Assembly: GCA_019671135.1 (NCBI GenBank)
Contig: JAHRHY010000005.1
Span: forward strand, 124,001 to 188,000
Direction of reading: 5' to 3'
Source of the DNA: Linnemannia hyalina
Lineage: Eukaryota > Mortierellomycota > Mortierellomycetes > Mortierellales > Mortierellaceae
DNA: 64,000 nt
Shown here: positions 840 to 61,634 of the stretch, piece by piece
Layout: each line of letters begins with the position of its first letter
How positions within the stretch are numbered: position 1 is the stretch's first letter
Position numbers and translations under genes: made by a program
Notes under the pieces: generated by a model
The model's input: only the letters and a program-made list of their open reading frames with translations
Databases searched by the model: none
What the model was told of the DNA's origin: nothing

Positions 840-1787
840 TTAAAGACGAGCACTGAGGGAGCGGGCAACGGTGGCGGTAATGAGACCGGATGGGTCAGCG
901 ACGGGCTGGTAGACATCAGCATGCTCCTGCAAGTTCTTGGTGCCACGGAAGTAGTTCAAGTCGACGGCAAAGAAATGGCGGTTGGGAAGAGCATAGGAGA
1001 CACGCTCCAACCACTTCCAGTTGTTGATCGACTTGGCAGCCATCTTGTACAAAGTAGCCTGGACCGACGCAGACTCATCCTTGGCAAAGATGTCGCAGGT
1101 GACATCACGGACAGAATCGTAGATGGTGTTGAAGGGGATCTGGCCGAGGGTCGAGAGGACGTTGACAGAGTCGACGGCGGGGACGTTGAACTCCCAAGTG
1201 GCGTCGACACAGGTCGAGAGGACGCGGTCCTTGGCCTCGGGGAGGGTGGTGTACTCGTCACGGACGAAATCCTCGAAGGAAGATCCGGTGGTCTTGAGGA
1301 CAAGGAGACCGGCGATGGAGGATTTGAGGTCAATGGTGCGGCGGCCCTTGCAGTTGGGTCCACGCTTAATAAAGATCTCGGTCTGGCGGGTCTCGTCACC
1401 ATCGCGCCAGAAGGAGTGGTTGTGCTCCTTGCCGTCGATGATCATGCGGGCCCAGCGGTGGCGGATGATGGTGACGTGGGCGCCCTCGACCCAACCGTAG
1501 GTGTTCAAGAAGTGGTTGGCGAGCTCGGCGGCAAAGAGCTCGAGGGTGTCGACGACCTTGGAGGACTTGGCGAGGATATAGCAGGTGTTCTTGATAGAGT
1601 CGGTGGCGACGACGGCCTTGTTGGACGCCTCGGTGTAGGAGGTGGTGAAAGAGGAGCCGGAGAGGAGGCAGCGGATGGTGAGGTCGTCGACGCGGTGGAC
1701 GTTGGTGTCCTTGTGCACCTTGAGGAGGCGGACCTTGTCCTTTCCGTACTCCTGCTTGTCGAGGTAAACGTTAACGGTGGCAGTCAT
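840..1787 (-). CDS. uaZ: Urate oxidase (uricase), peroxisomal
   Basis: Oxidises urate to 5-hydroxyisourate with O2, the first step of purine-ring catabolism to allantoin. The single-exon frame gives 315 residues, about the usual uricase length of 300. The family region around LVLKTTGSSFEDF is present, followed by RDEYTTLPEAKDR, and the N-terminal half carries the YGKDKVRLLKV block. The protein ends in ARL, a peroxisomal targeting signal type 1, so it should act in the peroxisome matrix. The start is the ATG at 1787, which begins MTATVNVYLDKQEYGK; the open frame runs 28 codons further upstream, but that part is low-complexity Ser/Thr/Pro and looks like leader sequence. The opposite strand also has a long open frame, which I treat as a shadow of the codon bias. 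Confidence 0.95.
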   Translation of the reverse strand: MTATVNVYLDKQEYGKDKVRLLKVHKDTNVHRVDDLTIRCLLSGSSFTTSYTEASNKAVVATDSIKNTCYILAKSSKVVDTLELFAAELANHFLNTYGWVEGAHVTIIRHRWARMIIDGKEHNHSFWRDGDETRQTEIFIKRGPNCKGRRTIDLKSSIAGLLVLKTTGSSFEDFVRDEYTTLPEAKDRVLSTCVDATWEFNVPAVDSVNVLSTLGQIPFNTIYDSVRDVTCDIFAKDESASVQATLYKMAAKSINNWKWLERVSYALPNRHFFAVDLNYFRGTKNLQEHADVYQPVADPSGLITATVARSLSARL

Positions 1788-3564
1788 CTTTGTTGTAGGT
1801 GTTGGTGAGAGAGAGAAAGAGGAGGAGTGAGTGGAGTGAGGTTGTATGGATAACGAAGAAGAAAAAAACAAGAAAAAAGAAGGAAGACGATGTAGTTTTT
1901 ATAAGGATCAGAAATAAGTGAGACCAAGTGAAATTGATTGGCTCTGATACGAACAATCAGATGTCTCCCTTTCCCCGGATATTTTTCTTGTCTGGTTGAA
2001 GTGTGCTGTGGATCATCCAGCACAGGTTCCCACCCTGAACGAACTGCCTGTACTTGGTCATGCCTGAGGGAAGCAAGGCGACGTGCCTGAGTAACTCTGC
2101 TCACACACACACACACACTCACTCACGCCCTTCCTGCATTGCACTCTCACGTACAAGATAAAGAGGTGGAGGCATGACCCACAGCGATGCAGCCATACAG
2201 CCATGCAGACCCACATTTTTTTTCTCTGCTTTCACCCGCCGACCGGGCAGTTCGGGAGATTCAATCGGAAAAAGAAAACTGACCGGAATGAAAAATTAAG
2301 GAAGGAATCACACGGCAACAACAAAAACTGGGTTCATTTCGAAAGTGTGGGGTAGGAGGAAAGACAGGACCCGATCTACATTTCATTTGTTGACGTACAT
2401 ATCCAAAAAAAAAAAAAAAGGAAGACGACCCCACTTCGTTGTCGTACTCCCCTCCTCCGTTCCATGCATCCATTCCATTCCTTCTCCTCCATCTACCCCA
2501 GCGCCCCTCTCTTCCTTACAGCCGTAGAGACTCCACCTTCCACCCTATAGAACAATCACCACTTCCCTCATCCATTGTCCTCCTCCCTCCCTCTCACAAG
2601 AAAAAAGATCGGCTAACCTATCAAAGAAAGAAGCCAACAAGGTAAAAGCCGTCACCTAACCCCATTGCTCAATTGCTTCTTCCTTCTGAACTCTGTTAAC
2701 ATAAAGGCAATTAGTGGAATGCGGGGAACACTTTCTCTGCATTCTTGCATTGCACTATTAGTCGTTGTGTCTGTGTGCCTGGGCAACTCATTGGCAAAAC
2801 ATATCTCTTGATCGCAAAACAGAATAGCCGAGCCAATTGCGCTGTTACTGCCTTTGAATGCGACTTTTTTCAAATCGTCATTTGCATTCTGCTAAAACAA
2901 CCACCCATGAAGGTACTCCCTCTTCCGCCTAGCAAAACGCAATCCTACGTATTTCCATCTCCCCGCAATCGAACGTCGCATTTGTTTATCCCAAGTATCG
3001 AAAACTATGTCTCTCAACCTTCAACCTTCCGCTGCCTCTACTCACAGCCCTTGGATCCCTAGGAAGAGCTGTGAGTGAAACCCGTTGTTTACCTTGACCG
3101 GCACACTCATCCACACCCACAAACACTGCATCATCCGTAAGAGCCGTAGAAAGGGTTGGAGAGGTAGAGTCTTCCTAGGAGCGAAAAAGGACGTACGTTG
3201 CTTAGGAAGAAAAATAAATAGAAAGAAACGCGTTCATCGCCAAATCAAAAAAATGTAATGTGTAACCCTCCTGCACCTAACCCACCTCGCCGACACTTGG
3301 TAAGACGAAAGAGACAAGCACTGTTGCTAGTTATAAAAATACATGGAGAGGAGAAGGTGAGGTGAGAAGAGGGACCTATGGGATGTGACGAGTGAAAGAA
3401 GAATGACTACCCTGCCTTGTGTGATCCTTTCCTGCCGCCCATTTGACTAGTAGAGTAGTAATACATACTTTTGACGTTTTCTCAGCAATGGACGTGTGAA
3501 GAACAGTTGGAACGAGTTTCAAGCATCCACGGTTGGATAGAATTGGATACAATCATGGGCAACT
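1788..3564. other. Uricase upstream region and gene-free spacer
   Basis: The part nearest the uricase start is pyrimidine/purine-biased leader and promoter sequence. A short AC run lies near 2101-2120 and a poly-A tract near 2406-2419. No coding region or RNA gene is recognisable. Confidence 0.4.
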
Positions 3565-3702
3565 TCAACCTGCTCTTGACACTATTTCAGCATGGAAGCC
3601 GCCAGCAATGATGGACAGAGTGAGGTAGAATGCAGAGTGGAAGTCGGTGCCGCTGGAGTCCTTGTGGCGGCGGGAGAACCTCTTCCGGCGCTCTGAGGTC
3701 AT
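3565..3702 (-). CDS. Possible small membrane protein, 45 aa
   Basis: A 46-codon frame starts at the ATG at 3702. Its N-terminus is very basic (MTSERRKRFSRRHKDS) and is followed by a hydrophobic stretch (AFYLTLSIIAGGF). The codons are GC-rich at third positions, like the real genes nearby and unlike the AT-rich surroundings. I do not recognise the product. It could be a complete small membrane protein, or the first exon of a larger gene whose later exons I cannot identify. Confidence 0.25.
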   Translation of the reverse strand: MTSERRKRFSRRHKDSSGTDFHSAFYLTLSIIAGGFHAEIVSRAG

Positions 3703-4729
3703 GATACTTTAGACGTGTCACACACACAAAAGGTCCCCCTCTCGTCCACCTCAAAGAAGATTGACGTTCAACAATAAGTCGATCACCTTCCAGGCACCAT
3801 CGACCTCTGCCACTGATCTCGATTCGATCTCGCCGTTGCCTGCCAGGTCCGCCCCCTCCTCGACCGAAAAATAGAAGTATGGATTAAAAACAAAACGCGT
3901 CTCTTCGACATCATCATTTCTATTCATGATATATGCGAACCAGAAGCGAAAACACGAAAAAGAAAACGAGTTGACTGCCAAATGAAGGGCGAAGAACATG
4001 TTTGGGTCTTGGTTGGACTCACTCTCAATGCTTGCATCCGCTCTCATCTATCGCACACCATTCTCTCCGACCCTATCATTTTCTTTTCTCGCTGCTATTG
4101 TTGTCAGGTCTGTGTCGATAGTCTCTTTGAAGTAGATGATGAATAAAGTATCCGTACGCGAGTGACAATTATTAGGCTGACTGGCTTCTATTAACTTTTT
4201 TTGACCATCTCGCCTCGTTCCTTATCACATATACTAATTGTGCAACGAGTTACTCCCTTTGATGTGAGTGACATTAGTACACACTTTCTTCCAGAGAGAG
4301 GTTGAACTGTTGCTGTTGAAACGGTCGATCCCTTGGTGTTTTGCTGTTAAATAGGCAGGAGATGGGGAGGGTGTTCGATCAATTTCTTAATTCCTTTTTT
4401 TCTTCCTTGCACTTTTTTTCCGCCTAACATGGATGGGTGGAGGTCGTCAAGCCTATACCCGTAATGAATGGTAGAAGAAGAAGGGAGAAAGAGCTGTGTG
4501 TGTATTGGGCGAAAGAATAAAAAAAATAGCTAACACCAAATGAAACGAACAGAACGAAAAAGAAACATGGTAGAATAGAAGGGAAAGGAGTGGTAGTGAG
4601 TTAAGTATGTTAACGAGTGATTGTTTACTATGAAAGAGGTAACGCAGGACGAAGTTGTTGAAGAATAGAGGATTATTCTTTGTTTGAAAGTAAAGTAAAG
4701 GGGAGAGAGAGGTAAAGAGAAGTACGTTC
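3703..4729. other. Intergenic, no gene seen
   Basis: AT-rich sequence with T-runs between the small reverse-strand frame and the P450 stop codon. Short open frames occur but show no domain or splice continuity. Confidence 0.35.
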
Positions 4730-7027
4730 TCATGCCTCTTTGGCCGCATATGCAAGGGCGTCAGAGGAAGGGAATGTCATTTTACCATCTTTGTTATTGT
4801 TGTTGCGGCTGGTAACGTAAAGTCCTGTTAGACTGGTGTAAGTGAGTGGGGAGGTGAGCATGCCTAGTTCCCTTTTCTTGTCCTGCGAGACGAGACTTGA
4901 GTACTTGGTGACAAACAGCGCAATCATGATCTTCAAATCGTGCACAGCCAAGAACCGACCAGGGCATGTAAACCTACGAGCAAGAAAGCAAAATGACGCA
5001 CTCCGTCAGTACGTTATCGCGCGTTGCGGGGATAGTACATAATGAAACAATAAAAACAAAAAAACAAAGGGGACTTACTTTCCGAGACCGAAGGTCATGT
5101 AGTCTTTGGTGGCCTTGGCAGCACCAGGGTTCTTGCCCAGAAACCTCCAGGGATGGAACTCTCTCAGATTATCGCCGTGGACCTTGTCCTGATGAACCGA
5201 TCGCATATTAACAATGACCTTCTCGCCTTTACGAACGACATGCCCTGTCGACAACATCACATCCTTGCGTGCCAAATGCGAACTTGCCAGACGCTCGATC
5301 CGGTGCCGGAACATCTCCTTCAGGAACGAGTCCACTTTGACAGCTCTCTTGACCACAAACTCTGTGATCTCGCGATCCACCGAGGGATCCAGATCGGTGC
5401 CCTCAAATGAGGACATTGTTCCTTTCTCGTGGTAGCTCTGACGCTGCTCCTCACGGTCCTTTGCTTGCTCATCGAACAGCGCCTCGACCTCTTCATACAG
5501 TGGCTGGAGCGAGTCCGGAAACGCCGCTAAATAAAACAACACGTTCATCCCAGCCTCCAAGGTAGTATGCATGCTCGCCAGGATCAACAGGATCAAATGC
5601 CCACAAATGTCCTCCAAATCCACAAACCCATACTCGTCCACATTATCCAACATCCTCTGCAACATATCCTGGGGCCGATCATACTCGACTCCTTGCTCAG
5701 CAGCCAGGCGCTCTTGTTGACGACGCTGTTCGACAACGGGTTGAGCGGCCTCGAAAAGGACCTGACGGTGCTTGTGCATGGCGCTGAGATATCCATATTG
5801 GGCCTTGTTCTTAAGGATTCTGTTGGTGTCACGGGTTTCGGTGTTCTGGTTGATGATCTTGCCGAAATCGTGGGTGCAGTTGATGAACGTCTGGAGTACC
5901 TGTGTGTTCTCGGCAATCTCAGATCCCATGAAAATCTGCGCCACTATGGTTTGTCGTTGTTTTTCCCAATGGCGGCAATGGGGAAGGACGAAATCATGCG
6001 AAAGTGAAAGTTTAGAAGAAAGAATGGTGGAGAGGAGAACAAACAAAGTGAGCAGTTAGTGAGCGAAAAGAAAGAGGAAGAACCATAAAGAAGAAGACGA
6101 CCGAACGAATAGTGTGGACACAACTTTAAACTGAACAAAGAAGCAAACACACATCCAACACTCTCCATATCGCACACACCTCAAACGCTAAAAAAATTGC
6201 GCGTAAGACAGAGGAAAAAAAACACTTACTCGTGGCAGCGACGATATTCTGAAGAGCAACCAGAGGCCATTCAATCAACTTCGGCTCCTCTCCCTCGGAC
6301 GGCCCAATATGCTGCTCCAGCGTAACAGTCATCCTCTGGACAATCTCGGGCGTAAAGCTGCTCAACTTGGTCGAAACACCCTCCCGCAGCAATTGAAAGT
6401 GCAACATTGTGTCGACATCCTTGTGGCTCTTGATCACACTGTGGATGAACGCCCGGTATCCTGTCATATGTTCGACAGCATCTCTGAAGCTGAAATCTTC
6501 GTGTAAATGGATCTCTCTGGCTAGCGAAGGGCCTGAGACGACGGTCAGAGACTGGTTTAGGCATTGAATTAGGAAGACAGGGCCATAGGCTTGTTCGCAT
6601 CGGAGCAAAAATGCATCGGGGTTCTCATTGTACTCGACATCGTGGGTTGAGTCTCCCTCCCGCAGCGATACTTTTGGAATCACCTATGTTCAAGAGGTAC
6701 AACGAGATACTGGTGTTAAAAATTGCAAGCGTACATAGGTCTGCATGAAGGATGCATGACACTTAGTTAATCAAGTGAAGTGGGGAGGGCCATGCCGTGT
6801 CCAGCAAAGTCTCAGACACACACACACACACACGATGGGACATGATGTTCCTATCAATCCCTTCTCTTTCTCTATGTCCCTCCATTTGTTACCTCCTCGG
6901 ACTCATATTCAGTGCGGACGTTGTTGATGAACAACTGGGCACACAGGTACGCTAGCGAGATGACACCGGCACCGATGGGGATCGCCAGTTTGAGTGTGTT
7001 GGCAGAGACAGTGGTTAAGGTTGACAT
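4730..7027 (-). CDS. Cytochrome P450 monooxygenase, ER-anchored
   Basis: Four exons read 6893-7027, 6230-6683, 5079-5943 and 4730-4973 and join in frame to 565 residues, slightly longer than most fungal P450s. Donors are GTAACA, GTAAGT and GTAAGT. Residues 10-34 form an N-terminal membrane anchor (LAIPIGAGVISLAYLCAQLF). The I-helix carries ASMHTT in place of the usual AGxDTT. The K-helix has EMFR (ExxR), followed by PWRF (PxRF). The heme loop is FGLGKFTCPGR, with the Cys thiolate near residue 488, and it is completed exactly across the last intron, which supports the model. The protein should be a microsomal monooxygenase that takes electrons from a P450 reductase. The substrate is unknown, and no biosynthetic cluster partners are next to it. 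Confidence 0.9.
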
Positions 7028-8063: not shown

Positions 8064-9435
8064 GTAAATCGACATTGGTATACAGGACAACATTATTGAG
8101 AACTCTCTTAAATCGAATCACTAGCAACAAGCGTCGGATTACCCCCCTCACTACATTCAAGCTACCGTTTGTGTCGTTCACTGAGCCTGAGCTTGCTTCG
8201 TTTTTCTGGAAGAGAGAACCGCTAAAGACGAGACTTATGGATCTGGTTGCAAAGGATGGATCCCCCACCAGTACCTTATCCGACATCGCGAGCTGGATCG
8301 CTGGCAAGGGTCCCGGGATCATTATCAAGCAGTTCATTGCTGATGTCGCGCCTCAGGTTAAAACGAGCCGTTAGTGGAGGAAGGCCGGTCACCGCGGAGC
8401 TGTCAAGCTTCTCAACTTGGAACAGATCAAGTCGCATTTGACAGCTGTTCAAGACAAGTGGGTCGACCCGATCAATTACGCCACAAAAGGATACATCCTG
8501 CGTGATTCCATTCGCACGGACGGATTCCAGCTTCAACTTCCCGCCTACAAGCTCTGTGAGCTACAATCAGTACGGTACCGTCGGCTGGAACCTGCAAAGC
8601 TGCCACCCAAGTTGACGTCTACGGTTGGAGGCACAGATTACTATCTCCAGGGAATCCGGGGTGTGATAACCTGCAAGGAGGGTATCGAGGAGCTTTGGCC
8701 AGGTGTCACTGTCGACAGGATCAAGACTTTGACGTTGGACGGTGGACAAGTATGCATTGTTAATGCCTTCACGGAACTTTCAGAGGCCGTGTTGAGCCAG
8801 GCTAAGGGCAAGGAGAATGCGAGCGAGTCATCTATGGAGGACGTCACCACCACCACCACCGTCGCCAGTACCATCGCCGCCGACAATCAGCAATCGATTA
8901 ATGCGACTACCTCCGCATCGACCAAAAGTCCCCATCCCGTTGCCACAGTCACAAGGGTTACCCGCCTTCTCGTCCAGGATAAAATCTCTGAACCTGGCTG
9001 TCAAGCAGAAATCCGTTTACCAACCTACGTTCAGATTCCGGCGCTGGCTTGAGGACGCAAAGCAAGAGCAGGTCTCTGTGGATAGACAACAGGTATCGAT
9101 ATCTGACATCAAGTCTCGACTTCCGCCCCTCAAAGGCCAAGGCTCGAGCGTGATCAACTATGTCCAGAAGCTGGAGCGGGTGGGGAGTGTCTCCAGGAGT
9201 TTTATACTGGCTCGGGAAATCTGTACAAGCGGCACAAGTGGGACATGGAGAGGACCCGCGATTATGAGTATCGGCTTATCGCAAATCGCCTCCTTGGGAT
9301 CGTGGGAGGAAGCCTTGGCAGGCGATATGACCCATCAAATCCTGTTCTCATTGGCGTCGGTCTTGGGAACTTCTCTATCAGGAGCGGACTGTCAGCCCTC
9401 AACTCGACCTTTCTCAGCTACTTCATTCAAAAGGT
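8064..9435 (+). pseudogene. Truncated Fanzor-like nuclease copy
   Basis: A diverged duplicate of the middle of the larger gene downstream (roughly its 12066-13440). Matching blocks include SFTEPELASFFWKREPL, GHRGAVKLL, IRTDGFQ, LTLDGGQVC (RuvC-I Asp region), NLAVKQKSVYQPTFRFRRWL and LLGIVGGSLGRR through IGVGLGNF to YFIQK. It stops at the same exon end (a GTAACC donor at 9436). The first half (FEN1-like region) and the last exon (catalytic Glu, zinc ribbon, RuvC-III Asp) are missing. Inside it are an in-frame TAG (8372-8374) where the paralogue has Gln, a frameshift near 8960-8985, another near 9185, and a disturbed frame around 8080-8130. It is non-functional as it stands. Confidence 0.8.
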
Positions 9436-9618
9436 AACCATTGCCTTGAAGGTGTCCATTAGCGGAGAGTTGAAATATTTCCTAATATGGGTCATGCAAG
9501 ACTTCGTGTACTTGCTTCGGTGACGTGAGAAATGCGTCCACTGTCCCATAAACAACTCGAAAAGTGCGCGTACACAACAACGACTCTCTCTCCTTTCTTG
9601 AACACATGTGCAACCGCC

Positions 9619-12600
9619 ATGGGTTTATCTTTTTGGTACCCATTCATACGACGCAAGGGCTACAACCCTGCTCAATTGTACCAGTCGATCGTCGCCAAAG
9701 TCGCTCCCAACAGACGTCGCAGACTCGATGTCCTCGGAACATGCTACCGTGTCATTCGCAACAGTTACTCCAACAATCCTCCAGATGTCGCGCACCGTAT
9801 GCTCGAGAAGGAAGTGAGCCGGTATGGGTCTTCTCTGGATATGTCACTCTATATCGACGGCTATCAAGCAGTGGAAAAGAGTCACACGGCCGCCGAGCGA
9901 GAAGGAGTACGGGATAGAGCAATAGAACGCACCACCACACACTCGAGTCCCGTCTGGACAACGGTCTCCGCATTAGAAAACGCCACTTTGTTGACGTTCG
10001 GTCGGGACTGACGTCGTCTTTTTACTGGTCTCGGGAAAGTCGCTTGGGATTTGCACAGTACATGCAGAACGCGAGCTGGACTGTCAAAGTTGCCGACACT
10101 GAAGCGGACTTGGCCATTGCGATCGATGCGGAGCCAGACGATATTGTCATTTCTAGTGACTCGGATATGATGGCGTACGCCTCCATCCAAACTCTATGGC
10201 GTCCCGTATCCGGAGGTCTCATCCTCGCTTACACCGTTCCAGATCTTTTAAAAGCTCTTGGTGTCACCCGTTCCCAGTTGACTGCTCTGGCAGTTGTGAG
10301 TCGCAACGACTATAACAGGAACATTCACTCCCTCGGCCCGGCGACTAATTTTTCTATTATCAAGTCCATTGACCGTACAGGTAATGATCAAATGGGGAAA
10401 TTTTATCCCTTGATATTGATTGCTTTTTCATATGAAATTCTGACAGTCGATATCCTGCATTACTAAATAGACCCGAAGGACATCGTGTTGAGCTATCTAT
10501 CTAACAGCAGGGTTGTCTCAAAAAACACCAATAATCAGGACTTCGCCTTCTCGACCAGAGTCTTTGTGGATCTCCGACAAACCAGACTTGAAATCGACGG
10601 ATCCCGGCCCGGTTCTCAGATCCTGTTCCAGCAACTACAGGACCGATTTCAGGATTTCTGCACGCGATATGACCAATATAAACAGAGTCAAACGCGGGGA
10701 GTTCAGCTTAAGTAACTATTTACTGTTGGGCCAATCGAGATCAGGCTATATACGTGAACTGTATCTCATCATGTTTGTATTTTTTTAAAAAAATTGATAG
10801 GTCCTCCGACGATACTATCGCACGATTGCGAGCTCCGAGCTCTTTTAATCGGTATCGGACTGTCGAATCCCCAGCACCGGTTTCCAAGGACTCTGAATCC
10901 TTTCCTCAGAGGCCACCCACTGCTAGTTTGGAGCCTACTGCTTCGACTTCTTCGGATCCGCAAGATCATAGCCATCCGCCATTAACCAGAACACAGATAC
11001 CTCGACATCGTCAACGATTTTCCTTCAAGGAGCGACGAGGGAACGTGGCTCATGATCCCCCACCCAAGGCCAAGCAATTGGTTTGGAAACCGCCCAAGAA
11101 GGCTCCCGAGTCCCCCGACGACACTTCCACCAGCAGCACCAAGAAGGACAGCAAAAAGAAGGATGCAAAGGCTAAGAAGACTCGGGAAAAGCCGTCATCC
11201 AATGAAGGATCGAACTCGCACGCGGAGAAGGGCAAGCAAAGTCTCGTGAGGTCTCTCGGCTGGCACCACCCCATATCATCGCTGGAGGTCGGTACTTTGA
11301 AGACCAACATCGATAGAGTCTTGACGAATCGGCCTGATCTACAGCTCGAGGTGATCAACTGTATCAGCGAAGGTTCAGAGCTTGCAGTGGATATCAAGAG
11401 AAAAGCTCAAGGTCTCATTGGTGGGTTTCTGGAGAAGTTGCGGAATCGTATGAAGGCAGCGGAGGAGTCTAAGCGACAGGAACTGAGGAAATCAGGCAAG
11501 ACCATGTCGGAGTCGGAGCGGCTGGAGGCACGGCGGGATGCGGTGACGATGGACGAGCGAGATACTCTGGATTATCTGTGTGAGAGGGTTGAGCCCAAAG
11601 TCAACAAGTGTGGTGACGACGACGTCGACGACAGTCAGGAGGATTCAGGCGACCTGGATACAGAAGGGAAGGGTAACAAATACTTCCAATTCCTTCTGTC
11701 TTTCTTGGCCTACTTGTACTCAAGGAACCTTCCAGACAAGAACTCGAAAATCGGAAAAGTCGTCAACACCTTCATCAACATCCTGGTAGGGCTTCAACTC
11801 TTCGACATCTGTAGAAATCGAAACGAGCTCAACGAAAGAATGCCGTTCACGGCGAGCTATCTGGTGCGGTCCGTCGCTGGACAGCTCTCGGTGGAACTGA
11901 AGAAGATGTATAAAAATGGCACCCACCTTTTGTATGATCAGGTAAGGATACCAGGGCTATTAACAAAATGGGCTGAAGTTCATTGCTGCAAAATATATAG
12001 CTCATGCTTCTTAACTTTTCGCTATAGGTCAAGACCTTGAAGGAGAAGGGACGACTAGAGGACCATATCGATATCCGGATTCAGGAAAACATCTCGGCCG
12101 CGGAAAACTACCTTGCCCTCAACGAGCTCATACCGAACAGCTGGTGACTCGCTCCCATCACCTCCTCGCAGCAACCGTTTGTGACATTCTCGGAGCGAGA
12201 GCTGGCACTTTTCTTTTGGAAGCGACCCTTGTTGAAACAGAGACTGGTCGAGCTGGCCTTCTCGGACGAAGATAGTACCACCCTCACGTCTACTAAGGAT
12301 CTCGAGGACTGGATCGGAGGGCGAGAGCCTGGGGTTATCGTCAAGAAGTTCATCTCCGACATTGATCCAGTTGGGCTGTCAAACCGTCAAAAGCGCAAGA
12401 CTGGTCATCGCGGGGCCATCAAGCTGCTCTCCTTGGGTCAGATTCGGGATCATTTGGAGTTGGTTGAAGAGACAAAGCCAAAGGACTATCATTATAGCGG
12501 CTACATCCCTCAAGGATCGATACGGACGGACGGTTTCCTGGTCCAGGTTATGGCCTTCAAGTTGCGTGAACGACAGGACGCTCGATTCAAAAGACTGGCC

Positions 12601-13935
12601 GAGGAGGATATGCCCTCACGAATCACTACAACCGTTGCAGGGGTTAACGGTTTCCTTCAGGAAATTCGGAATGTGATCAAGAGCGAGCAGGACATCAAAG
12701 AACTTTGGCCTGGAAAGGACGTGGACAGGATGAAGATTCTAACCTTGGATGGGGGCCAAGCGTGTGTGGTTGGCGCGTTCGCACATCTACCCAATGGCTT
12801 GGGTGGCAAGGAGAAGGCTGAGGAGGAGTCCAGCATGGACGAAATCATCACCACCAACCAAGAATCGACCAGCCTCGCCAGCCAAGGGTTAGCGTCCGTG
12901 GATCCAGTGCCCGCGTCAGCCTCCACCATCACCTCTGCGCAGCCTCCAGTAACGGATTCGCTCGTGACCATTTCGAGACCTGCCTACTATAACTTGGCGG
13001 TGAAGCAGAAGGCCGTATATCAGCCAACATTCCGCTTCAGAAGGTGGCTCGAGAACGAGAAGATAGCTACACTACAAGGCGACGAGGAGAAGTCGATTAC
13101 TTACATCGAAACCCATATGCCACCTCTTCGAGGACAAGATGCGAGCGTTATTGAGTATGTGACAGAGCTGGAGCAGGTCGAGCAACGGCTGAAAAAGTTC
13201 TATACTGGAGACGACCATCGGTATCAAAGACATCGTTGGGATATGGCACGGGCCCGACAAGCAGAGTATCAAACGATCGCGGAGAGACTGCTTGGGATTG
13301 TTGGTGGTAGTCTAGGTCGGCGTGTGGAAGATAACAAGGACACCGACCCTATCCTAATTGGCGTTGGTCTTGGACAGTTCGCAAGCAAGTCTAGGCTCTC
13401 GTCCCTACACTCGACCTTCCTAACGTACTTCATTCAGAAGGTAGGCTTGTTTTTATCGATACCTTTGATACAAGGCACTGCAAGTGAATGTCATTGAATG
13501 AAAAAAAAACTAACATGGTTATTTATTCGCGATTTTCAGGCACGCTCGTTGGGCTATGTGGTTATTGGCCTGAACGAGTTTTATACCTCGAAGAAGTGTC
13601 CGAGGTGCACTCACTTTGTCGCACAAGTGACCTTACGGACCTTCCACTGCTTCCACTGCCAGATATACCACCACAGAGATGTCATGGCAGCCGAAAACAT
13701 GTCCAAGATCGCTCTAGGACACCTGGTGAGGCAGGAGAGACCCGATTACCTCCAGCCTATCAACGCAGATGGAACGTACCCTTGGAAGGCTAGGTCTGGC
13801 GAGGGATCCGGTACAAGTTCGAGCAGTATGGCCACCGGCAGCACCCCCACCGATCGAGTCCCAGGACGTCGCAAGAGGGCCATTACCGCTTCCAGTCAGG
13901 ATCAGGGCAGGAAAGGCAAATCGGCCCGAGCTTAG
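9619..13935 (+). pseudogene. FEN1/XPG-like plus Fanzor/TnpB-like fusion nuclease, interrupted
   Basis: Five exons (9619-10380, 10471-10711, 10801-11940, 12028-13440, 13540-13935) would give about 1,316 residues. The N-terminus begins MGLSFWYPFIRRKGY and matches the XPG/FEN1 fold. Acidic positions are LDVLG (D37), LYIDG (D80), DTEADLA, SSDSDMM and SRNDYNRNI, the last inside an H2TH-like LGVTRSQL...LGPATNF region. A charged, low-complexity linker follows. The C-terminal part is TnpB/Fanzor-like: RuvC-I LTLDGGQAC (Asp at 12748), NEFYTSKK (Glu at 13576), zinc-ribbon CPRC and CFHC, and RuvC-III HRDVMAAENM (Asp at 13678). Two lesions break it: a one-base frame change in the CA run near 9930-9940, and a TGA at 12145-12147. 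Transcripts and relatives are needed to say whether this allele works; from the sequence it looks recently inactivated. It could also be two adjacent genes, but intron phases keep one frame throughout. Confidence 0.75.
12148..13935 (+). CDS. Fanzor-like RuvC and zinc-ribbon module (open C-terminal part)
   Basis: This is the uninterrupted portion of the fusion gene downstream of the TGA, spliced 12148-13440 to 13540-13935 across a GTAGGC...TTTTCAG intron. It contains the SFSEREL-like block conserved with the truncated copy, the RuvC-I Asp in LTLDGG, a Ser/Thr-rich insert, the basic block VYQPTFRFRRWL, the IGVGLGQF strand, the NEFYTSKKCPRC segment with a Glu just ahead of the zinc ribbon, and HRDVMAAEN. 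Fanzor proteins are known as eukaryotic RNA-guided nucleases related to TnpB. Placing the catalytic Glu close to TSKxCxxC fits my recollection of Fanzor rather than bacterial TnpB. The first ATG in frame is downstream of 12181, so independent expression is possible but unproven. The tail is basic and disordered (RRKRA, GRKGKSARA), as expected of a nuclear protein. Confidence 0.65.
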
Positions 13936-14046
13936 ACTAGTTTTTTACGCGTGTGCGAAACCACGCATTAGTGATGGATTGTGGGGCTGGGTTCTACGAT
14001 GGCGTTACTTCGGTGACGTCATTTTGGCGCCCATTGTCCTGCAGCC

Positions 14047-15051
14047 ATGCGCTCATTCTTCTATTATCATACGACACCGCTTGGTGCTTCTTTCACCACT
14101 CACCAAAGTAATCCACGTCCCTCAATGGAGCAACCTTCCGATATCATCCCTCATCTTTCGACGGATCTCAGAGCTATTCATGATGGCCTACAAACCCAAC
14201 TACAAGGATTGTCAGAGGTCCTTGCTCATCGCAACCTTTTCATTTACAACCAAACTACACAGCATTACACCACGCTTGTCGACAAGTTCATGCACGTTCT
14301 CCAACAGTACCTCGACAACACACTACTCGACCTCTTCCGAGTAATCGATAACATTTCAAGCCTGATGAGGATTTACGACCGAGACCTCGACATATTTATC
14401 CACCATAAAGCATCTACCATTTCAGGCGTGGAATCGTGCATACAAAAAGTCGAGGCGCTGATCGACCAACACTCCAACACTATTAGCGAGTTATCCATCA
14501 CTTCTTTCGAGATCGCCGAACTCATTAAGGAATATGAAGCCGAAGCCGACAACCATTCAAATGGCTCCGTGACGGCAAAGATTGTTTCTGCCAGTCTGGC
14601 CGTAACAGGGGCCGTAGCGAGTGCTGGTCTTGCAGTCATGGCCCCACCCTTTGCCATTGGTACATTCGTTTTGTTAGCAGGAGGTGGTGGAGGAATTAGT
14701 GGTCTTATCTCTCTCCACGACCAACACAAGTCCGATATCTATACCACCGCAGCAGCCAATCTCAACATAGTCCAAAGATGCTCCGAGGGACTCCAAGCAC
14801 CTATCTCCGCGATTTACAAAAAACTTGGAAGCAGCAAACAGTCTCTGCTGTACATCAAAGACGACACCTCGACTGCAACTTCTGACAACCAGCCAGACTT
14901 CATTCGTCGTGACTCATACATGGCGGCAAGAAAGGAGGCTGAACAGATCATACAAGTGTGCAGCGAGATTAGACAGCACGCAGTAGATATTAGAATTTTA
15001 AGGGGCCAGCTTACATCCAGAACGAACCTGAGACAAATCACTCAAAATTAA
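14047..15051 (+). CDS. Helical protein with ClyA/HBL-like architecture
   Basis: A single-exon frame of 334 residues; MEQPSD at 14125 is an alternative start and the first 26 residues may be leader. Long amphipathic helices flank a central hydrophobic hairpin at about residues 179-222 (SASLAVTGAVASAGLAVM, then a Gly-rich turn). That layout resembles the ClyA/haemolysin BL type of alpha-helical pore-forming proteins, in which a tail domain surrounds a membrane-inserting hairpin. I see no secretion signal. The resemblance is in architecture only, and a non-toxic membrane-binding or vegetative-incompatibility role is equally possible. It begins 111 bp after the fusion nuclease stop and is intronless, unlike most genes here, so it may be part of the same accessory block. 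Confidence 0.6.
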   Translation: MRSFFYYHTTPLGASFTTHQSNPRPSMEQPSDIIPHLSTDLRAIHDGLQTQLQGLSEVLAHRNLFIYNQTTQHYTTLVDKFMHVLQQYLDNTLLDLFRVIDNISSLMRIYDRDLDIFIHHKASTISGVESCIQKVEALIDQHSNTISELSITSFEIAELIKEYEAEADNHSNGSVTAKIVSASLAVTGAVASAGLAVMAPPFAIGTFVLLAGGGGGISGLISLHDQHKSDIYTTAAANLNIVQRCSEGLQAPISAIYKKLGSSKQSLLYIKDDTSTATSDNQPDFIRRDSYMAARKEAEQIIQVCSEIRQHAVDIRILRGQLTSRTNLRQITQN

Positions 15052-15241
15052 ACATAAGCTTGGTTTAGATTGCTTCTTATCTGCTGTTGCACTTTGTCCT
15101 TGAGGAGCCATTCAATTGCTTGAGCAAGCACTGGCACAAGGTTAGGAAGATGCTAGTTTGTCCGGAAAGACCGTCACGAGGTATGTTTTTTAATCGCAAC
15201 TGCAGATATCATACCTCGTTTGCGGATATGATACCTGTTAT

Positions 15242-15480
15242 TAGAGAAATTGAGCACTCTGAAATTTTCACAGTGTGTGGCAGTGAAATTCCAAATACGT
15301 AGGTTTTTCTAAGCCACTGTGAACATCACTGTGAAATTTTCACTGGTTCGTTCACAAGCTGTGAAGATGGCTTCAAATGTTCATAGTGGTTGTTTTTGAA
15401 TCAATTCTTCCACCTTTGCAATTGAAAAACCAACTTCACTGCCACACACTGTGAAAATTTCAGAGTGCTCAATTTCTCTA
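15242..15480. mobile_element. MITE-like element with 46-bp perfect terminal inverted repeats
   Basis: Bases 15242-15287 and 15435-15480 are perfect reverse complements (arms begin TAGAGAAATTGAGCACTC). The 147-bp centre contains further short CACTGTGAA/TTCACAGTG inverted motifs and no coding frame. TTA sits just outside each end (15238-15240 and 15481-15483), the target duplication expected of PIF/Harbinger-type elements. The assignment to that superfamily is an inference from TTA alone. Confidence 0.6.
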
Positions 15481-15483
15481 TTA

Positions 15484-16592
15484 AATTGTACCTCTTAACA
15501 ACCAGTATCACACACTTTTTTTTTCAAGGTAAAGATGCGCGTCCGCGACGACACATCTATTTTATCCAATCAATAGTGGAGCTCTCTAAGTGTCCCTCGT
15601 ACGTGCACATAGTCTACCTCACTCAGTAAAGTATCCTAAACCGTACAGCGCACATGAGGATTGTACAGCCCGTCCTCACCGGGTCAGGGACGACGAGCAT
15701 CACACACTGGATGGTAGGCGACTCACCCTTTTTTTTGTCGCAACGGCAGGTCAAGTGCTTGAATATTTTTTTGACTGAATACACATTAATTGAAAAGGTT
15801 ATTGGACGATTTACTAATGGAATCGTCCCAGTCCCAATAAAAAAAAATTCACAGTGCTTCTCTTTTATCTGCAACAGTATCACCAGCCTTGGTATGGACA
15901 TGCCGCACTGACGCGACTCTCTTTTACTGTTACACGTCCATTCATATAGACAAGAATAAGACGATCATGCATACAGTCAAATGAATCGGGGCGGTTGGGT
16001 TCTTGCTAATTGGAGTGCGAAGAGAGAGAGAGACAGTAGTGGAACTTATGAGAGAAAGTGCACAAAAATCCATAAACAAAAAAAGAATGGATAATGATGT
16101 GAAGGGACAGGATCATACATGTTATGGAAACTCGCATTAGAAGACCACTTGGTATAAATAGCTATCACATCCGTACATAGGATTATTAAAGCACGGATGG
16201 ACCTTGTACTCGTTGTTTTTCTCTACTGCGCCTCCAAAAAATAATAAGAAACAAAAAAGAAAGGATGCGGAGGGACAGCATCAGGATTGAACCTGTTGGA
16301 TCCCTCTGACTAGTTCATAGTGGAGGTGTCTCCTTTGTGAGAGAACACTGGTTTTTTTTGGTTGTTTTGTGGATTATACTTTGTTGACGATGAAGGGTGT
16401 TGTGGTCGCTAACGCATTCCTACAGTCAAAAGTTGCAGCAGGGTTGTTATTCTCCTTGACGTCTAACGTTTCTGGGAGTAAAGAAGGAACGACGATGTAC
16501 TCCTTACGACTGAAGGTGTATGTCTGGATATGTTCTTTGGCAGCTGAGACCACCACTGAGATCTGGAAGGAAGCCATGGGCAAGATTGACGA
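15484..16592. other. Intergenic, no gene seen
   Basis: AT-rich spacer with short open frames only. No RNA gene or further long repeat is recognisable. Confidence 0.35.
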
Positions 16593-24295: not shown

Positions 24296-24586
24296 TTAAG
24301 CCACGTGGTTCCAGAATTCTTGAGTGAGGATGAAGGACGATACTCCTGGCGGAGGCTGAGCCCATTTCCAAAACTGGTCGATTTCGATAGCCCAGGGTTG
24401 TTGATGGAAGTGACGGATCTGGCTGAGGTAATCTACTAGTAATGGAGGCGAGCCAGAAGGTGGAGTGACAACGGCGCCGGAAGCGATAATATATGACTCG
24501 GCACAGAGGGATCGTCGGACTGGAGTTCGAGAAGGAGGACCTTGGGAAGGACAGTTCTGGGCGGGAGTGTTTTGAGCAAGGCGCAA
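24296..24586 (-). mobile_element. Retroelement-related fragment
   Basis: The frame has a Ser/Pro-rich start, then LLVDYLSQIRHFHQQPWAIE. That aligns by eye with the block in the fragment next to the LTR at about 21.2 kb (YLxxLQIIHAQLAILE). It is a short remnant of the same family. Confidence 0.3.
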
Positions 24587-24808
24587 GTGAGGATCTGGGT
24601 CAAGAGACGAACTCGAACTCTGGCGTCATTACTCAACATAATTACCCTTTCCTACGTCATGAGGCCCGAGCTAGGACTTGGATTATTTGTTTTTCTATTT
24701 TTTCCCTTTTCCCTTCTCCCTTCTCCCTTTTCCCTTCTCCCTTCTCCCTTCTCCCTTCTCCCTTCAACCCAAAAAAAACACAAACCACCACCAGAACACA
24801 CACAGAGG

Positions 24809-25873
24809 ATGCCACGCATAACACAAGAAAAGATAAACGAGGCAGTGAGAATGATAGCTACAGGAGCAACAACCAAGGAGGTCTCACAGGCGCCCGACAT
24901 CTCCGCATCTTCTGTCAGTCTCCTCCGTCGCGCCAACAGCGAAAACATCACTTCCACCAAAGCAGCAGCGGGACGACCCAAGAAAGACCCCGGTCTCATC
25001 TTTGACTTTCTGCAACCCAAGAGCAGACAAGGCACCTTCAAGTATGCCTTTGCTGTTACACCAAGGGATCTTGTCACCAAGACACCTTATGGTCGTCAGC
25101 TCCCTGCAACTACTGCTCAGGCCAAGAGGAATAAGTCAAAGGAACCAGCTGCAATGCCAGAGGCACCACCAGCACGGCCAGTACCCGATACACACAACAT
25201 CCAGGGACGACTGCGCTTTGTAGACAAGTATAAGGACTGGACCGAGGAGGATTGGAAAAAGGTCATCTGGTCAGGGAGAACAAAGATTGGCGAGGGCTGT
25301 GGAGGCGAGCCAACTGGTATGTGGGTCGACATACGCAACCCACATGAGCGTGATGAGGGTTCTGTTGTCTATGGAGGATGGGAAGTGCAGGTCTGGGCGT
25401 GCTTCTCGTGGGACGGACCAGGGAACATCACCCAGATCGACGAGGACCAGACTAGGAGCACCGAGCGCTATGTTCAGATTCTGAAGGAGGACTTGGAGGT
25501 GTCGATCGAGAACTGGGGTATTGCCAGGGATGGACTTGTTTTCCATCAGAGGACTGGACCCGTACCACACAAGACCAAGAAGACCATCGACACCCTGCGG
25601 GCAGCACATTTCTCTGAGGCCGAGGGGACTCTTTTGCTTGGACCAACTCATTCACTTGACATTGATCCGATGGTTCAGATCTGGGACTTTGTCAGGAAGC
25701 GACTATGGACTTATCACAACGCCCCAAAGAGCCCGGAGGAGCTGTGGGAGCGACTTGTGGCAGAGTGGCGCAATATCCCTGTGAAGGTCTGTCAGGATCT
25801 CATCAAGTCGATGCCAAGTAGGGTTGAGGCAATTCGTGAAGTCAAGGGGATGCAGGTCAAACAGCGAGAGTAA
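24809..25873 (+). CDS. Tc1/mariner-type transposase lacking catalytic acids
   Basis: A single open frame of 354 residues starts at MPRITQEKIN. An N-terminal helix-turn-helix (KINEAVRMIATGATTKEVSQ) is followed by an AT-hook-like GRPKK at residues 55-59 and the DDE_3 core. Core landmarks are DWKKVIWSG, VYGGWEVQVWACFSWDGPGN, RYVQILKEDL, FHQRTGPVPHKT and HSLDIDPMVQIWDFVRKRL. At each catalytic position the acid is gone: WSD to WSG (G156), QDN to QRT (R248), and NPIE to DPMV (V289). The frame has no stops or frameshifts. Terminal inverted repeats are not visible, and the upstream side is a CCCTTCTCCC tract. Either a young inactive copy or a domesticated DNA-binding protein would explain this; the undamaged frame favours the second. 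Confidence 0.8.
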   Translation: MPRITQEKINEAVRMIATGATTKEVSQAPDISASSVSLLRRANSENITSTKAAAGRPKKDPGLIFDFLQPKSRQGTFKYAFAVTPRDLVTKTPYGRQLPATTAQAKRNKSKEPAAMPEAPPARPVPDTHNIQGRLRFVDKYKDWTEEDWKKVIWSGRTKIGEGCGGEPTGMWVDIRNPHERDEGSVVYGGWEVQVWACFSWDGPGNITQIDEDQTRSTERYVQILKEDLEVSIENWGIARDGLVFHQRTGPVPHKTKKTIDTLRAAHFSEAEGTLLLGPTHSLDIDPMVQIWDFVRKRLWTYHNAPKSPEELWERLVAEWRNIPVKVCQDLIKSMPSRVEAIREVKGMQVKQRE

Positions 25874-37769: not shown

Positions 37770-38691
37770 ATGGCTGCTGATCAAGGAAAAGGTATGCACC
37801 TCACGCCCCCTTTCGCTACTTACATAGACTCACACTCCTTCGCTCTTGTCCCCCTCTTTTGTCTCCTCCCTTCTACCGCCTTACTCAGTACTTGGAAACA
37901 ACACACACTCTTACACGCTCTTCGTTGGACTTTATCTTGGACTTTTCTCGATAACATCTGGATCTGGAAACAAAGAAACCACTCTCACAAGCTCGCCTTG
38001 GGATATGGAAAACAAGGATGTGAACAAATATCACCCGCCTTCTTTCGCCATAATTTTTTTTCTCACACTATGGAACAACGCATAGCAGAAACAAATGGAC
38101 AAGACAATCTCCTTTATGCAACACGCAGGACATGCATGGATACATCGTCACTTCTCCTTTTTTCCTTATCATTCGGTGCCCTTCCACTTCTCTTTCTCTC
38201 TTCCAGTGTGAATCACGTGTAGTGTTGGTGATGATATTGATGACGACCGTGATCACTAACCACTACCTTCTAATCACCATCCAATAGCTGTCGGAATTGA
38301 TCTCGGAACCACCTACTCGTGCGTCGCCGTGTGGCAGAACGACCGCGTCGAAATCATCGCCAACGACCAGGGTAACCGCACCACCCCCTCCTATGTCGCC
38401 TTCACCGACTCTGAGCGTCTCATCGGTGACGCCGCCAAGAACCAGGTTGCCATGAACCCCGTCAACACCGTCTTCGACGCCAAGCGCCTCATTGGTCGCC
38501 GCTTCGACGACAAGGACGTCCAGTCCGACATGAAGCACTGGCCCTTCAAGGTCATCGACAAGGCCACAAAGCCCTACATCCAGGTCGAATACAAGGGCGA
38601 AACCAAGGAGTTCACCCCCGAGGAAATCTCCTCCATGGTCCTTACAAAGATGCGCGAGACCGCAGAGGCGTACCTCGGAACCACCGTCAGC

Positions 38692-38729
<38 letters not shown>

Positions 38730-39567
38730 CCAGCGTCAGGCCACTAAGGACTCTGGTATGATTGCCGGCCTCAACGTCCTCCGCATCATCAACGAGCCCA
38801 CTGCCGCTGCTATTGCCTATGGATTGGACAAGAAGACCGTCGGAGAGAAGAACGTCCTCATTTTCGATCTCGGTGGTGGTACTTTTGATGTCTCCCTCCT
38901 CACCATCGAGGACGGAATCTTTGAGGTCAAGGCCACCGCCGGTGACACTCACTTGGGAGGCGAGGATTTCGACAATCGTCTCGTCAACCACTTTGTCCAA
39001 GAGTTCAAGCGCAAGCACAAGAAGGATCTCTCGTCCAACCCTCGCGCACTCCGCCGCCTCCGCACCGCCTGCGAGCGTGCCAAGCGTTCGCTCTCTTCGT
39101 CTGCCCAGACCTCGATCGAGATCGACTCTCTCTTTGAGGGTGTTGATTTCTACACTTCCTTGACCCGTGCTCGTTTCGAGGAGCTTAACCAGGACCTCTT
39201 CCGCAACACCATGGAGCCCGTCGAGAAGGTCCTCCGCGACTCCAAGATCGACAAGGGTCTCGTCGACGAGATCGTTCTCGTCGGTGGCTCCACCCGTATC
39301 CCCAAGATCCAGAAGATGGTCTCCGACTTCTTCAACGGCAAGGAGCCCAACAAGTCCATCAACCCCGATGAGGCCGTCGCCTACGGTGCTGCCGTCCAGG
39401 CTGCCATTCTTACCGGTGACACCTCCGAGAAGACTCAGGACCTCCTCTTGCTCGATGTTGCTCCTCTCTCACTCGGAATTGAGACCGCCGGAGGAGTCAT
39501 GACTGCCCTCATCAAGCGTAATACCACCGTCCCCACCAAGAAGTCAGAGACCTTCTCGACCTACGCA

Positions 39568-39598
<31 letters not shown>

Positions 39599-40206
39599 AC
39601 GAGGGTGAGCGTGCCCGCACAAAGGATAACAACCTCCTCGGCAAGTTCGAGCTCACGGGTATCCCCCCTGCCCCTCGCGGTGTTCCTCAGATCGAGGTCG
39701 TCTTTGATATTGATGCCAACGGTATCTTGAACGTCTCAGCTGTCGAAAAGTCCACCGGTCGCGCCAACAAGATCACCATCACCAACGACAAGGGCCGTCT
39801 CTCCAAGGAGGACATTGAACGCATGGTCAACGAAGCCGAGAAGTACAAGGCCGAGGACGAGGCAGCCACTGCCCGCATCCAGGCTAAGAACGGGCTCGAG
39901 TCGTTTGCCTTCAACATCAAGAACTCTTTGGCCGACGAGAAGGTCGGTGGCAAGCTCGATGCTGCCGACAAGAAGAAGCTCGAAGATGCCTGCCAGGAGG
40001 TCATTACTTGGCTCGACGGCAACCAGGAGGCCGAGAAGGAGGAGTTTGAGGCCAAGCAGAAGCACCTCGAGGAGATCTCCAACCCCATCATGATGAAAAT
40101 CTACGGCGGCGCCGGTGCTCCCCCCGGTGCTGGTGCTGGCGGTGCTCCCCCCGGCGGCTTCCCTGGCTCAGGCGAGTCCGAGCCTACCATCGAGGAGGTC
40201 GACTAA
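37770..40206 (+). CDS. HSP70: Cytosolic Hsp70 chaperone (SSA type)
   Basis: ATP-dependent folding chaperone of the cytosol and nucleus. Exon 1 is 37770-37791 (MAADQGK) and exon 2 is 38288-40206, joined across a 496-bp intron to give 646 residues, the family's usual size. Signatures are [24 protein letters not shown] and [13 protein letters not shown], with the linker region [19 protein letters not shown] Gly/Pro-rich tail ([10 protein letters not shown]) ends in EEVD, the motif bound by TPR cochaperones. Codon use is strongly C-ending, as in highly expressed genes. The heat-shock array at 37395-37443 predicts control by HSF, whose gene is also in this window. Two decayed tandem copies follow. 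Confidence 0.97.
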
Positions 40207-40902: not shown

Positions 40903-42256
40903 CTATATGAATCGACCTCGGAACCTCCTATTCTCGCGTAGCAGTGTGGAAGGATAAAGTTGAAATCATTCTCATCGACGCCCCAGGGTAACACAAGCAT
41001 GCCTTCTTATGTCGTCTTCGCAAGTTCGAGACGGTTGGTTGGAGCGGTCGCCAAGAAATCAGGTTATCGACAATATCACCAACACGGTCTTTGATATCAA
41101 GCGTCTACTTGGCCGTCGCTTCGACAACATCAACGTCCAGTCGGACGTGAACCTCTGGCCGTTCAAAGCTGTCAACACCGACAGGAGCAGCAGTTCCCGC
41201 AGCGTCCAAGTCGACTACAGAGGCGGGACCTGGCAGTTGACGCCCGAAGGAGATCACCGCCATGGCCCTTTCCAAGCTGCAAAAGGCTGCCAATGCTCGC
41301 CTTGGAACTTCTGTCAGGGACGCCGTCATCTCTGCGCCTGCCTACTTCAACGACTCCCAGCGCCAGGCGACCATGGAGGCAGGATCGATTGTCGGTTTCA
41401 ATGTCCTCCGTATTATCAAAGAAACAACCACTGCTGCTAATGCTTTTGGACTGGACTATTAGAACGAAGGGGAAAAATACTGTCCTCGTCTTGGATCTCG
41501 GTGGTGGTACCCTTGATGCCCCCCTTTTCGGCATTAGGCGAGGGCGTCGTGAGGTCCAGGCTACTACTGGAGACAATCACTTGAGAGGCCGGGATTTCGA
41601 CAACTTTCTCGTGGGGTCCTTTGTCCGTGAGTTCAAGGAAAATATTCCCAATGACAACTATAATGGTCCTTGTGCCCTCAATCGCGTCCAAATCGCCTAT
41701 GAGCAAGCCAAGATTGCCCTCTTCTCGTCGGATCAGACCGACATTGCCCGTTTTGAAGAGATTACCTCATCTCTCTTCCATCGCGTCTTGGAACCACCAA
41801 TACCGTACTCCAGTGTGCCAATATCAACAAGCAATCTGTCCATGATATTGTCTTTGTTGGCAGTTCAAGCAGGGTTTCCAAGATCCAGAAGATGGTCTTT
41901 GACTTCTTCTATGGCAAAACGCCCTACAAATTCATCAACGTCGACGAGGCCGTTGCCTAAGGCGCAGCTGTCCAGGCCGCCATACTCACCGGCGACACCT
42001 CCGAGAAGACCCCGGATCTCCTCTTTGCTCGATGTTGCTCCTCTCGCTCGGAATTAAGACCGCTAGAGGAGTCATGGCTGCCCTCATCTAGTGCAACACC
42101 ACTGTTCCACCAAGGGACACAATACCCCTCGCTGCTGTCACCGACAACCACGCTAGAGTCTTGACCGAGGTCTACAAAGGCGAGCATCATGTAATCACGG
42201 ACAGCAACCTCCTCGGCAAGTTCGAGGTCATCGGTGTTTCATCCCCCCCCCCTTGG
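40903..42256 (+). pseudogene. Decayed tandem Hsp70 copy 1
   Basis: Homology starts exactly where exon 2 of the intact gene starts, after an AG acceptor. Readable pieces include [76 protein letters not shown] and NEFKE-type segments, and it ends near NLLGKFEVIG. Several frameshifts and stops interrupt it, for example near 40985 and the TAG at about 41459. Retention of the splice-acceptor context argues for DNA-level tandem duplication rather than a retrocopy. Confidence 0.85.
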
Positions 42257-60775: not shown

Positions 60776-60806
<31 letters not shown>

Positions 60807-60830
60807 AACTACAACACGGGCAACAACTTC

Positions 60831-60870
<40 letters not shown>

Positions 60871-61594: not shown

Positions 61595-61634
<40 letters not shown>

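Follow-up and report, generated by a model that had tools for sequence, protein, structure and literature searches.

Fanzors are RNA-guided nucleases of eukaryotes, and their role in the transposons that carry them is unsettled. A rearranged RuvC site with an alternative glutamate and a DPG motif at RuvC-I that serves as fingerprint have been described for them (PMC10711439), and in Fanzor1 right-end RNAs the terminal repeat forms part of the scaffold (PMC10711439, PMC10432273). MuDR-type Fanzor1 elements of Mucor, Rhizopus, and Phycomyces have inverted repeats, a 9-bp target-site duplication (TSD), and no transposase (PMC3627910, Bao and Jurka 2013). Here, we analysed a 64-kb stretch of the 51.5-Mb genome of Linnemannia hyalina (50 contigs), positions 124,001 to 188,000 of contig JAHRHY010000005.1, called the window throughout (C44:124001-188000), in which a mobile element carries a gene that combines an N-terminal FEN1/XPG-type nuclease with a C-terminal Fanzor-like nuclease. 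The fusion is real, and the window copy of it is broken. An earlier note on this DNA, made from the letters alone, had proposed the fusion and knew of no description of it; none was found in the open-access full texts searched, to which this statement is limited, subscription papers and most preprints lying outside that scope.

The window gene reads from an ATG at 9619 to a stop codon at 13935 in five exons, placed by homology and splice signals, on the forward strand like all other parts of the element. Exon 1 (9619-10380) encodes in its first part (9619-9942) the start of the FEN1/XPG-type domain with the equivalents of D34, D86, K93, and R100, and in its second part (9921-10380), in a different frame, the remaining core with the motifs TEAD, SDSD, and RNDY. 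The end of the nuclease domain and the start of a linker follow in exon 2 (10471-10711), and exon 3 (10801-11941) encodes low-complexity linker and then a helical region, which may be REC-like, judging from its position and from the overall fold match of the C part. Exon 4 (12028-13440) contains the Fanzor-like half with the WED motif TDG, RuvC-I, and an in-frame TGA at 12145-12147, and exon 5 (13540-13935) the alternative RuvC Glu, a TnpB/Cas12f-type zinc ribbon (Pfam Cas12f1-like_TNB, 4.5e-13), the RuvC-III Asp, and the stop. One spliced frame with both nucleases had been read here: the domains, their order, and the span 9619-13935 stand, and the frame does not, as it shifts near 9942 and is interrupted by the TGA.

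The N-terminal domain is like FEN1, EXO1, and XPG (Rad2) in its fold, in seven acidic positions, and in a Lys and an Arg at +7 and +14 after the second Asp. In the window the acids are the Asp of RRLDVLG, the Asp of YIDG, the Glu and Asp of TEAD, both Asp of SDSD, and the Asp of RNDY, so that all seven FEN1 positions are occupied, as the earlier note had stated, with Asp in place of Glu at the fourth. In a 52-row alignment they are kept in 49/49, 52/52, 51/51, 50/51, 50/51, 51/51, and 50/52 letters, respectively. The Lys and Arg are present in all 52 aligned rows and also in 78/78 matches of a pattern that fixes neither residue (22 of 100 proteins gave no match to the pattern); their spacing is that of D86 and the gateway residues K93 and R100 of FEN1. 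An AlphaFold2 model of the N domain of protein P0143, built from the 52-row alignment, reached a pLDDT of 94.4 and a pTM of 0.89, and its matches in the Protein Data Bank (PDB) were led by EXO1 (1.8e-10) and FEN1 (3.0e-10); among the best 50 rows, EXO1, FEN1, Rad2, and XPG were found at 1.8e-10 to 6.7e-7 with TM values of about 0.45-0.63, and the variants D86N and R100A are named in the titles of matched structures. The domain is therefore predicted by modelling to have the FEN1/EXO1/XPG fold. It differs from these enzymes in the Asp for Glu at the fourth acid, in the 12-16% identity of the fold matches, in having no Pfam XPG_N match, and in its fusion to a Fanzor-like protein within a mobile element.

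Profile searches on the joined protein gave a mixed picture, with matches to XPG_I (some above the cut-off) and to the TNB zinc ribbon, none to XPG_N in the window pieces or the homologous proteins scanned, and guided_TnpB below its cut-off. XPG_I scored above the cut-off in P0006, P0164, and P0167 and below it in P0002, P0005, P0010, and P0022, and was not listed for P0009 and P0012. The fen_arch profile was found in seven of seven proteins (1.2e-7 to 0.0044), in all of them far below the model cut-off. A PDB profile search yielded Rad2 (0.0011), LaTranC (0.038), and FEN1 (0.05). Academ-type transposons were considered as a possible source of the XPG domain, and the papers listed in a literature search gave nothing usable on this.

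In the C-terminal part, the RuvC Asp, Glu, and Asp reported earlier are seen in the window at LTLDGGQ, LNEFYTSKKC, and HHRDVMAAE. In a 22-row alignment, in which the remaining letters are gaps, the RuvC-I Asp is kept in 18/18, the Glu in 11/13, and the RuvC-III Asp in 12/12; no Glu occurs in the nine columns of the RuvC-II strand, and the alternative Glu before the zinc ribbon is present in 41/42 motif matches. The TNB zinc ribbon was found above the cut-off, between RuvC-II and RuvC-III, in six of seven proteins, the seventh (P0022) ending before it. Matches of guided_TnpB, in six of the seven, lie at the zinc-ribbon end only, as do 9/10 PADLOC matches; the tenth is weak (PbeC, 0.0065) and falls on the N part. 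The WED motif appears as SIRTDGF in the window exon, and SIRTDG is found in 62 of the 90 proteins holding SIR (of 141). When a weak structural model of the C part was compared with the PDB by Foldseek, ranks 1-7 were all Fanzor chains (2.0e-7 to 1.4e-6), ahead of every Cas12. Structure prediction of the two domains thus gave an EXO1/FEN1 fold for the N domain and, for the C part, a ranking with Fanzors first from a model that is itself weak.

The fusion resembles Fanzors (SpuFz, PpFz, GtFz; assigned to Fanzor1 in the literature) in the best seven fold matches of this model, in the alternative Glu right before the zinc ribbon, in the WED motif TDG, and in a structured 3' RNA region reaching the element end, which here is predicted. 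It is unlike them in its N-terminal FEN1-type nuclease and long linker, in its size (about 1300 aa compared with 590-726 residues in solved Fanzor chains), and at RuvC-I, where the window has LDGGQ and its subfamily mostly DLG, DGG, or DAG instead of DPG. Since DPG is absent in most members, we call the window subfamily Fanzor-like; of the Fanzor/TnpB-like RuvC assigned earlier, the D-E-D residues, the alternative Glu, and the zinc ribbon hold, and the DPG fingerprint does not.

To be more than chance, the association of the two halves should recur, and it does. Among 13 loci outside the window that were compared, N domain, linker, Fanzor exon, and zinc ribbon follow in the same order in eight (L012, L013, L014, L016, L018, L020, L021, and L022), and L019 has the same order without the first N piece; of the N domain L009 retains the end alone, an N part is missing from L015 and L017, and L011 lacks both the N part and the zinc ribbon. 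Two of the loci, L013 and L014, each splice to one open frame, with introns at matching places, and the spliced L014 model is identical over 1335 aa to the annotated protein P0002 (KI688_002751). The same order in unlinked paralogs, the two open frames, and the identity with P0002 make the fusion more than a chance neighbourhood. Read-through of two neighbouring genes was considered and rejected on the order in unlinked paralogs, the P0002 identity, and the genome-wide pairing, and an assembly artefact was rejected because the arrangement repeats at dozens of unlinked loci.

Across the genome, at least 120 Fanzor-half loci and at least 85 nuclease-half loci were counted; these are lower bounds, because the searches score best candidates only. 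Genome matches were clustered for these counts; rows that fell on a locus entered before were dropped, as were three weak cross-hits from the subfamily B search (see below) to the window subfamily. A nuclease half lies within 6 kb upstream on the same strand at 68/120 Fanzor-half loci, and 68 of the 85 nuclease-half loci are paired with a Fanzor half; the nuclease half is nearby in another arrangement at six loci, and 17 of the 85 have no Fanzor half, among them C23:1074474, whose 1398-aa open frame may be the host's own XPG-type gene. Searches of protein databases are in agreement. The search that gave P0002 returned 22 homologs, which carry names in Linnemannia, Haplosporangium, Podila, Gryganskiella, Entomortierella, Benniella, and Mortierella; three of the names were checked as Mortierellaceae, and the remaining genera we take to belong to the same family. 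Half-protein searches returned 141 and 79 matches, with organism names of the same kind among the matches listed (at least 120 and 79), many being unnamed. Strict regular expressions detect the N and C signatures in one chain in 11 of the 141 proteins P0002-P0142, and proteins with both come from five genera; the remainder includes many that are partial or span one half. In nine long proteins, the identity matrices of the N and C parts are correlated (r 0.76; 7/5000 permutations as high), with some mosaics, e.g., P0005. Profiles, fold, genome-wide co-occurrence, and joined proteins all bear out the proposed fusion, and the two halves, which could have turned out to be separate genes everywhere, are not.

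The N-domain searches also yielded about 40 further, weaker places outside the window, which form a second, deeply diverged group, here subfamily B. One copy was read, within C44:394810-399500, as the pieces L060-L063 (a reading that leaves out bases 396101-396599). Its Fanzor half has RuvC-I as GIDPGE, the alternative Glu in VDEYLTSTMC, and a TNB match of 6.5e-8, so that both Fanzor marks, DPG and the alternative Glu, are present in the one copy read. An N half is present at 40 of the 43 Fanzor-half loci of subfamily B. Many of its copies are near-identical and open, and its spread is recent, since 11/52 matches are 98-100% identical across the whole Fanzor-exon query. The idea of a second XPG family without a Fanzor half was discarded, at one locus through the Fanzor half of L062 and at most others through the genome pairing.

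The genes lie in a multi-copy mobile element that has terminal inverted repeats and has recently spread. A terminal stretch behind the stop codon is common to 11 of the 13 copies, and a 32-base core pattern of the end (four free positions) occurs 94 times in the genome at up to three mismatches, with 0 occurrences of the reversed control. The element L013 is complete (about 1195-5982); its ends are inverted, and the 9-bp duplication ATTTGCATG stands on either side of it. The flanks of L034 share a 7-bp match, and no duplication was found at the termini of L012, L014, and L035. Three copies, on C1, C8, and C21, are 99.2-99.4% identical over the 1.54 kb compared; this similarity stops within one base of the 3' end, and the flanks are unrelated. 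In L034, a relative of L014 shortened by internal deletion to about 0.78 kb, 147 bp of the left end and 635 bp of the right end survive, the zinc-ribbon exon among the latter; the 'ghost' elements of S. punctatus are comparable (PMC10432273). No transposase was seen in the element. It shares the inverted repeats, the 9-bp TSD (one clear case), and the lack of a transposase with the MuDR-type Fanzor1 elements, for which the available text mentions no nuclease fusion (PMC3627910); with one clear 9-bp TSD, it is at most a candidate member of the MuDR superfamily. Both halves of the protein are under purifying selection: between the intact copies L013 and L014, dN/dS is 0.18 for the N part and 0.15 for the Fanzor exon, values that are rough because synonymous sites are near saturation (dS 1.8-2.3). 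For the zinc ribbon of the same pair dS could not be estimated, and between near, broken copies dN/dS is 0.56-0.90.

The window copy is a decayed relic of this family, which has intact members. It shares positions 9471-14046 with L012 (97.8%, blastn), and the 5' terminus present in L012 is missing from it. At the frameshift near 9942, L012 and L013 are in frame, and where the window has the TGA, an Arg is encoded in L009 and L012, both of them 97% identical to it. These closest relatives are defective as well: the match of L009 begins only at window position 10226, and L012 has frame changes within both its linker and its Fanzor exon. Directly adjoining the element at 9470/9471 is a fragment of a second paralog (8070-9470, forward strand; 91.5% to L014 3996-5404 by blastn) that comprises the Fanzor-half exon only and matches the window's own Fanzor exon at 42% of amino acids. 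In the 5' leader, a second, internal copy of the element-end motif (9515-9546; L012 1094-1125) lies in direct orientation relative to the right end. The 3' RNA part is retained.

This part, the 111 nt behind the stop codon (13936-14046, forward strand), is a candidate guide-RNA scaffold, arranged as in the Fanzor1 right-end RNAs described above: a short hairpin is followed by a long terminal hairpin whose 3' arm is the element end. In the window its fold has a z-score of -4.71 and it matches the scaffold model at 3.4e-10; at gathering scores, the window has no Rfam match. Six copies from a collection of 37 end sequences were folded, and all six form the short and the long terminal hairpin (z -2.63 to -5.98; at most 3/200 shuffles as good). 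In a raw alignment of 16 copies, selected because their upstream part can be aligned, pairing extends to 82.9% of cells compared with 78.2% after shuffling (0/500), and covariation is 0.186 compared with 0.118 (0/500) and with 0.023-0.126 when the structure is slid. In a model-fitted alignment (27 matches from 38 sources, of which 7 built the model, one is weak and antisense, and some are near-identical), pairing is 86.2% compared with 79.0% and covariation 0.238 compared with 0.141 (0/500), or 0.044-0.086 when slid, and all six pairs of the first hairpin show changes on both sides. Weaker measures were reached more often by the shuffles, pairs with both-side changes by 40 and 5 of 500 and further pair types by 352 and 56 of 500, and shuffling does not take out the relatedness among the copies. 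RNAalifold on the raw MAFFT alignment returned 11 pairs only, two with both-side changes; a structure-fitted alignment gives more pairs but favours the model by construction. In the recent copies L019/L037, L042, and L053 (on C1, C8, and C21), the loop sequence CTTCGGTGACGT stands twice in tandem at the right end, and the scaffold is longer because of this repetition.

How might the two nucleases work together? We propose a mobile element with terminal inverted repeats and without a transposase of its own that encodes a single protein, whose C-terminal Fanzor-like nuclease would be programmed by RNA from the element's own right end, with the flanking DNA as guide. The right-end RNA would be produced, bound by the protein, and direct the cutting of sites without the element; the N-terminal FEN1/EXO1-type nuclease would then trim or resect the 5' ends at the break, and repair of the resected break would take a homologous copy as template and so bring the element back, a form of RNA-guided homing or retention. 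The conserved active-site residues of both halves and the guide-like 3' end support parts of this scheme, and it is the coupling between them that we infer. Read from sequence, the whole explanation, in which RNA-guided cutting coupled to 5'-end resection would preserve or copy the element, stands to our minds in even balance between being right and wrong.

Several observations weigh against it. The C model was made from P0012, a protein that starts inside the N domain, and is weak as a whole (mean pLDDT 60.5, pTM 0.44); its helical lobe is confident, its RuvC is less so, and its Fanzor matches superpose poorly overall (TM 0.18-0.33, rmsd 16-27 Å). The middle residue of RuvC-I is L in 51, G in 33, A in 25, P in 4, and others in 5 of the 118 motif matches. 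In the one copy of subfamily B seen, the third FEN1 acid is Q (L060), and the 301 bases behind its zinc ribbon contain no scaffold of the window type (one copy; fold z -1.19). The common right end is absent from L015 and L018 (2/13 copies), a clear TSD is found in only one of five two-ended elements (L013, 9 bp), and the terminal hairpin could be in part a repeat structure at the DNA level.

Among other explanations, the best placed, which we still regard as unlikely, is that the FEN1-like half works in transposition or replication, where it would clear flaps from ends that have been excised or copied, uncoupled from RNA-guided cutting, so that the two activities share a chain and nothing more. 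Flaps are substrates of structure-specific 5' nucleases, the N fold matches EXO1 and FEN1, and the elements are mobile with inverted repeats; against this, two deep subfamilies both retain the Fanzor half in the fusion, and since the element has no transposase, the cutting of its ends would need another enzyme. A lower probability still, though not a trivial one, is given to the view that, in most copies, one nuclease half or even both lack activity and that the protein is a DNA- or RNA-binding regulator, or mostly decaying junk. The interrupted or truncated state of the window copy and its two closest relatives, the stops in many genome matches, and the mostly non-DPG RuvC-I speak for it, whereas the active-site residues are kept almost without exception, dN/dS between intact copies is low, and subfamily B has a large number of near-identical copies with open frames.

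That the FEN1-like half trims the 5' end of the guide RNA (the right-end transcript) rather than DNA ends is very improbable. FEN-family folds handle branched nucleic acids, and protein and scaffold are encoded side by side; the kept residues, on the other hand, match the DNA-acting EXO1, FEN1, and Rad2. SpuFz1 is not known to have a FEN1-type domain. It was nevertheless found with its guide RNA when expressed with the right end in yeast, according to the available text (PMC10432273), which also argues against such processing. Lastly, that gene prediction or assembly joined two adjacent genes or transposons is scarcely credible, even with many database entries containing one half only and a fragment of another copy adjoining the window element, given the same order in unlinked paralogs, the one-strand pairing at 40/43 subfamily B loci and 68/120 overall, and the both-signature proteins of five genera.

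Other features of the window lie downstream of the element. A 344-aa open frame without a Pfam match at 0.01 adjoins its right end (14017-15051), followed by a MITE-like foldback (15238-15484) with 53-nt arms, 96% complementary and 141 nt apart. The 458-aa open frame at 24497-25873 gave weak helix-turn-helix Pfam matches only, and we take it to read like a Tc1/mariner-type transposase. A decayed Hsp70 copy (40964-42057; Pfam HSP70 7.2e-20 on 41095-42057) lies behind an Hsp70 gene (38260-40206), and very long Gln/Ala-rich tracts (60743-62707) stand ahead of a chromodomain-SNF2 gene (Pfam on 63003-63599).

Our findings bear on what Fanzors do in their transposons. A 5' resection or flap nuclease joined to an RNA-guided one points at break repair, so the idea of homing or retention is directly testable. 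A similar pairing has been engineered, as an EXO1-based Cas9 editor raised homology-directed repair (PMC11107001) and a Cas12a with T5exo at its N-terminus proved efficient in knockout and knock-in (PMC8945719). Like these editors, the fusion pairs a predicted 5' nuclease with a probably RNA-guided one, in the same N-to-C order as in T5exo-ErCas12a; unlike them, it arose in nature and is old enough to be present in two deep subfamilies. It represents a natural architecture for editing that favours homology-directed repair and, if the proposal is true, would be the natural counterpart of the EXO1-Cas9 and T5exo-Cas12a editors. Tentatively, and at somewhat short of an even chance, the protein may be a self-programmed 'cut and resect' enzyme that gives a eukaryotic transposon RNA-guided homing.

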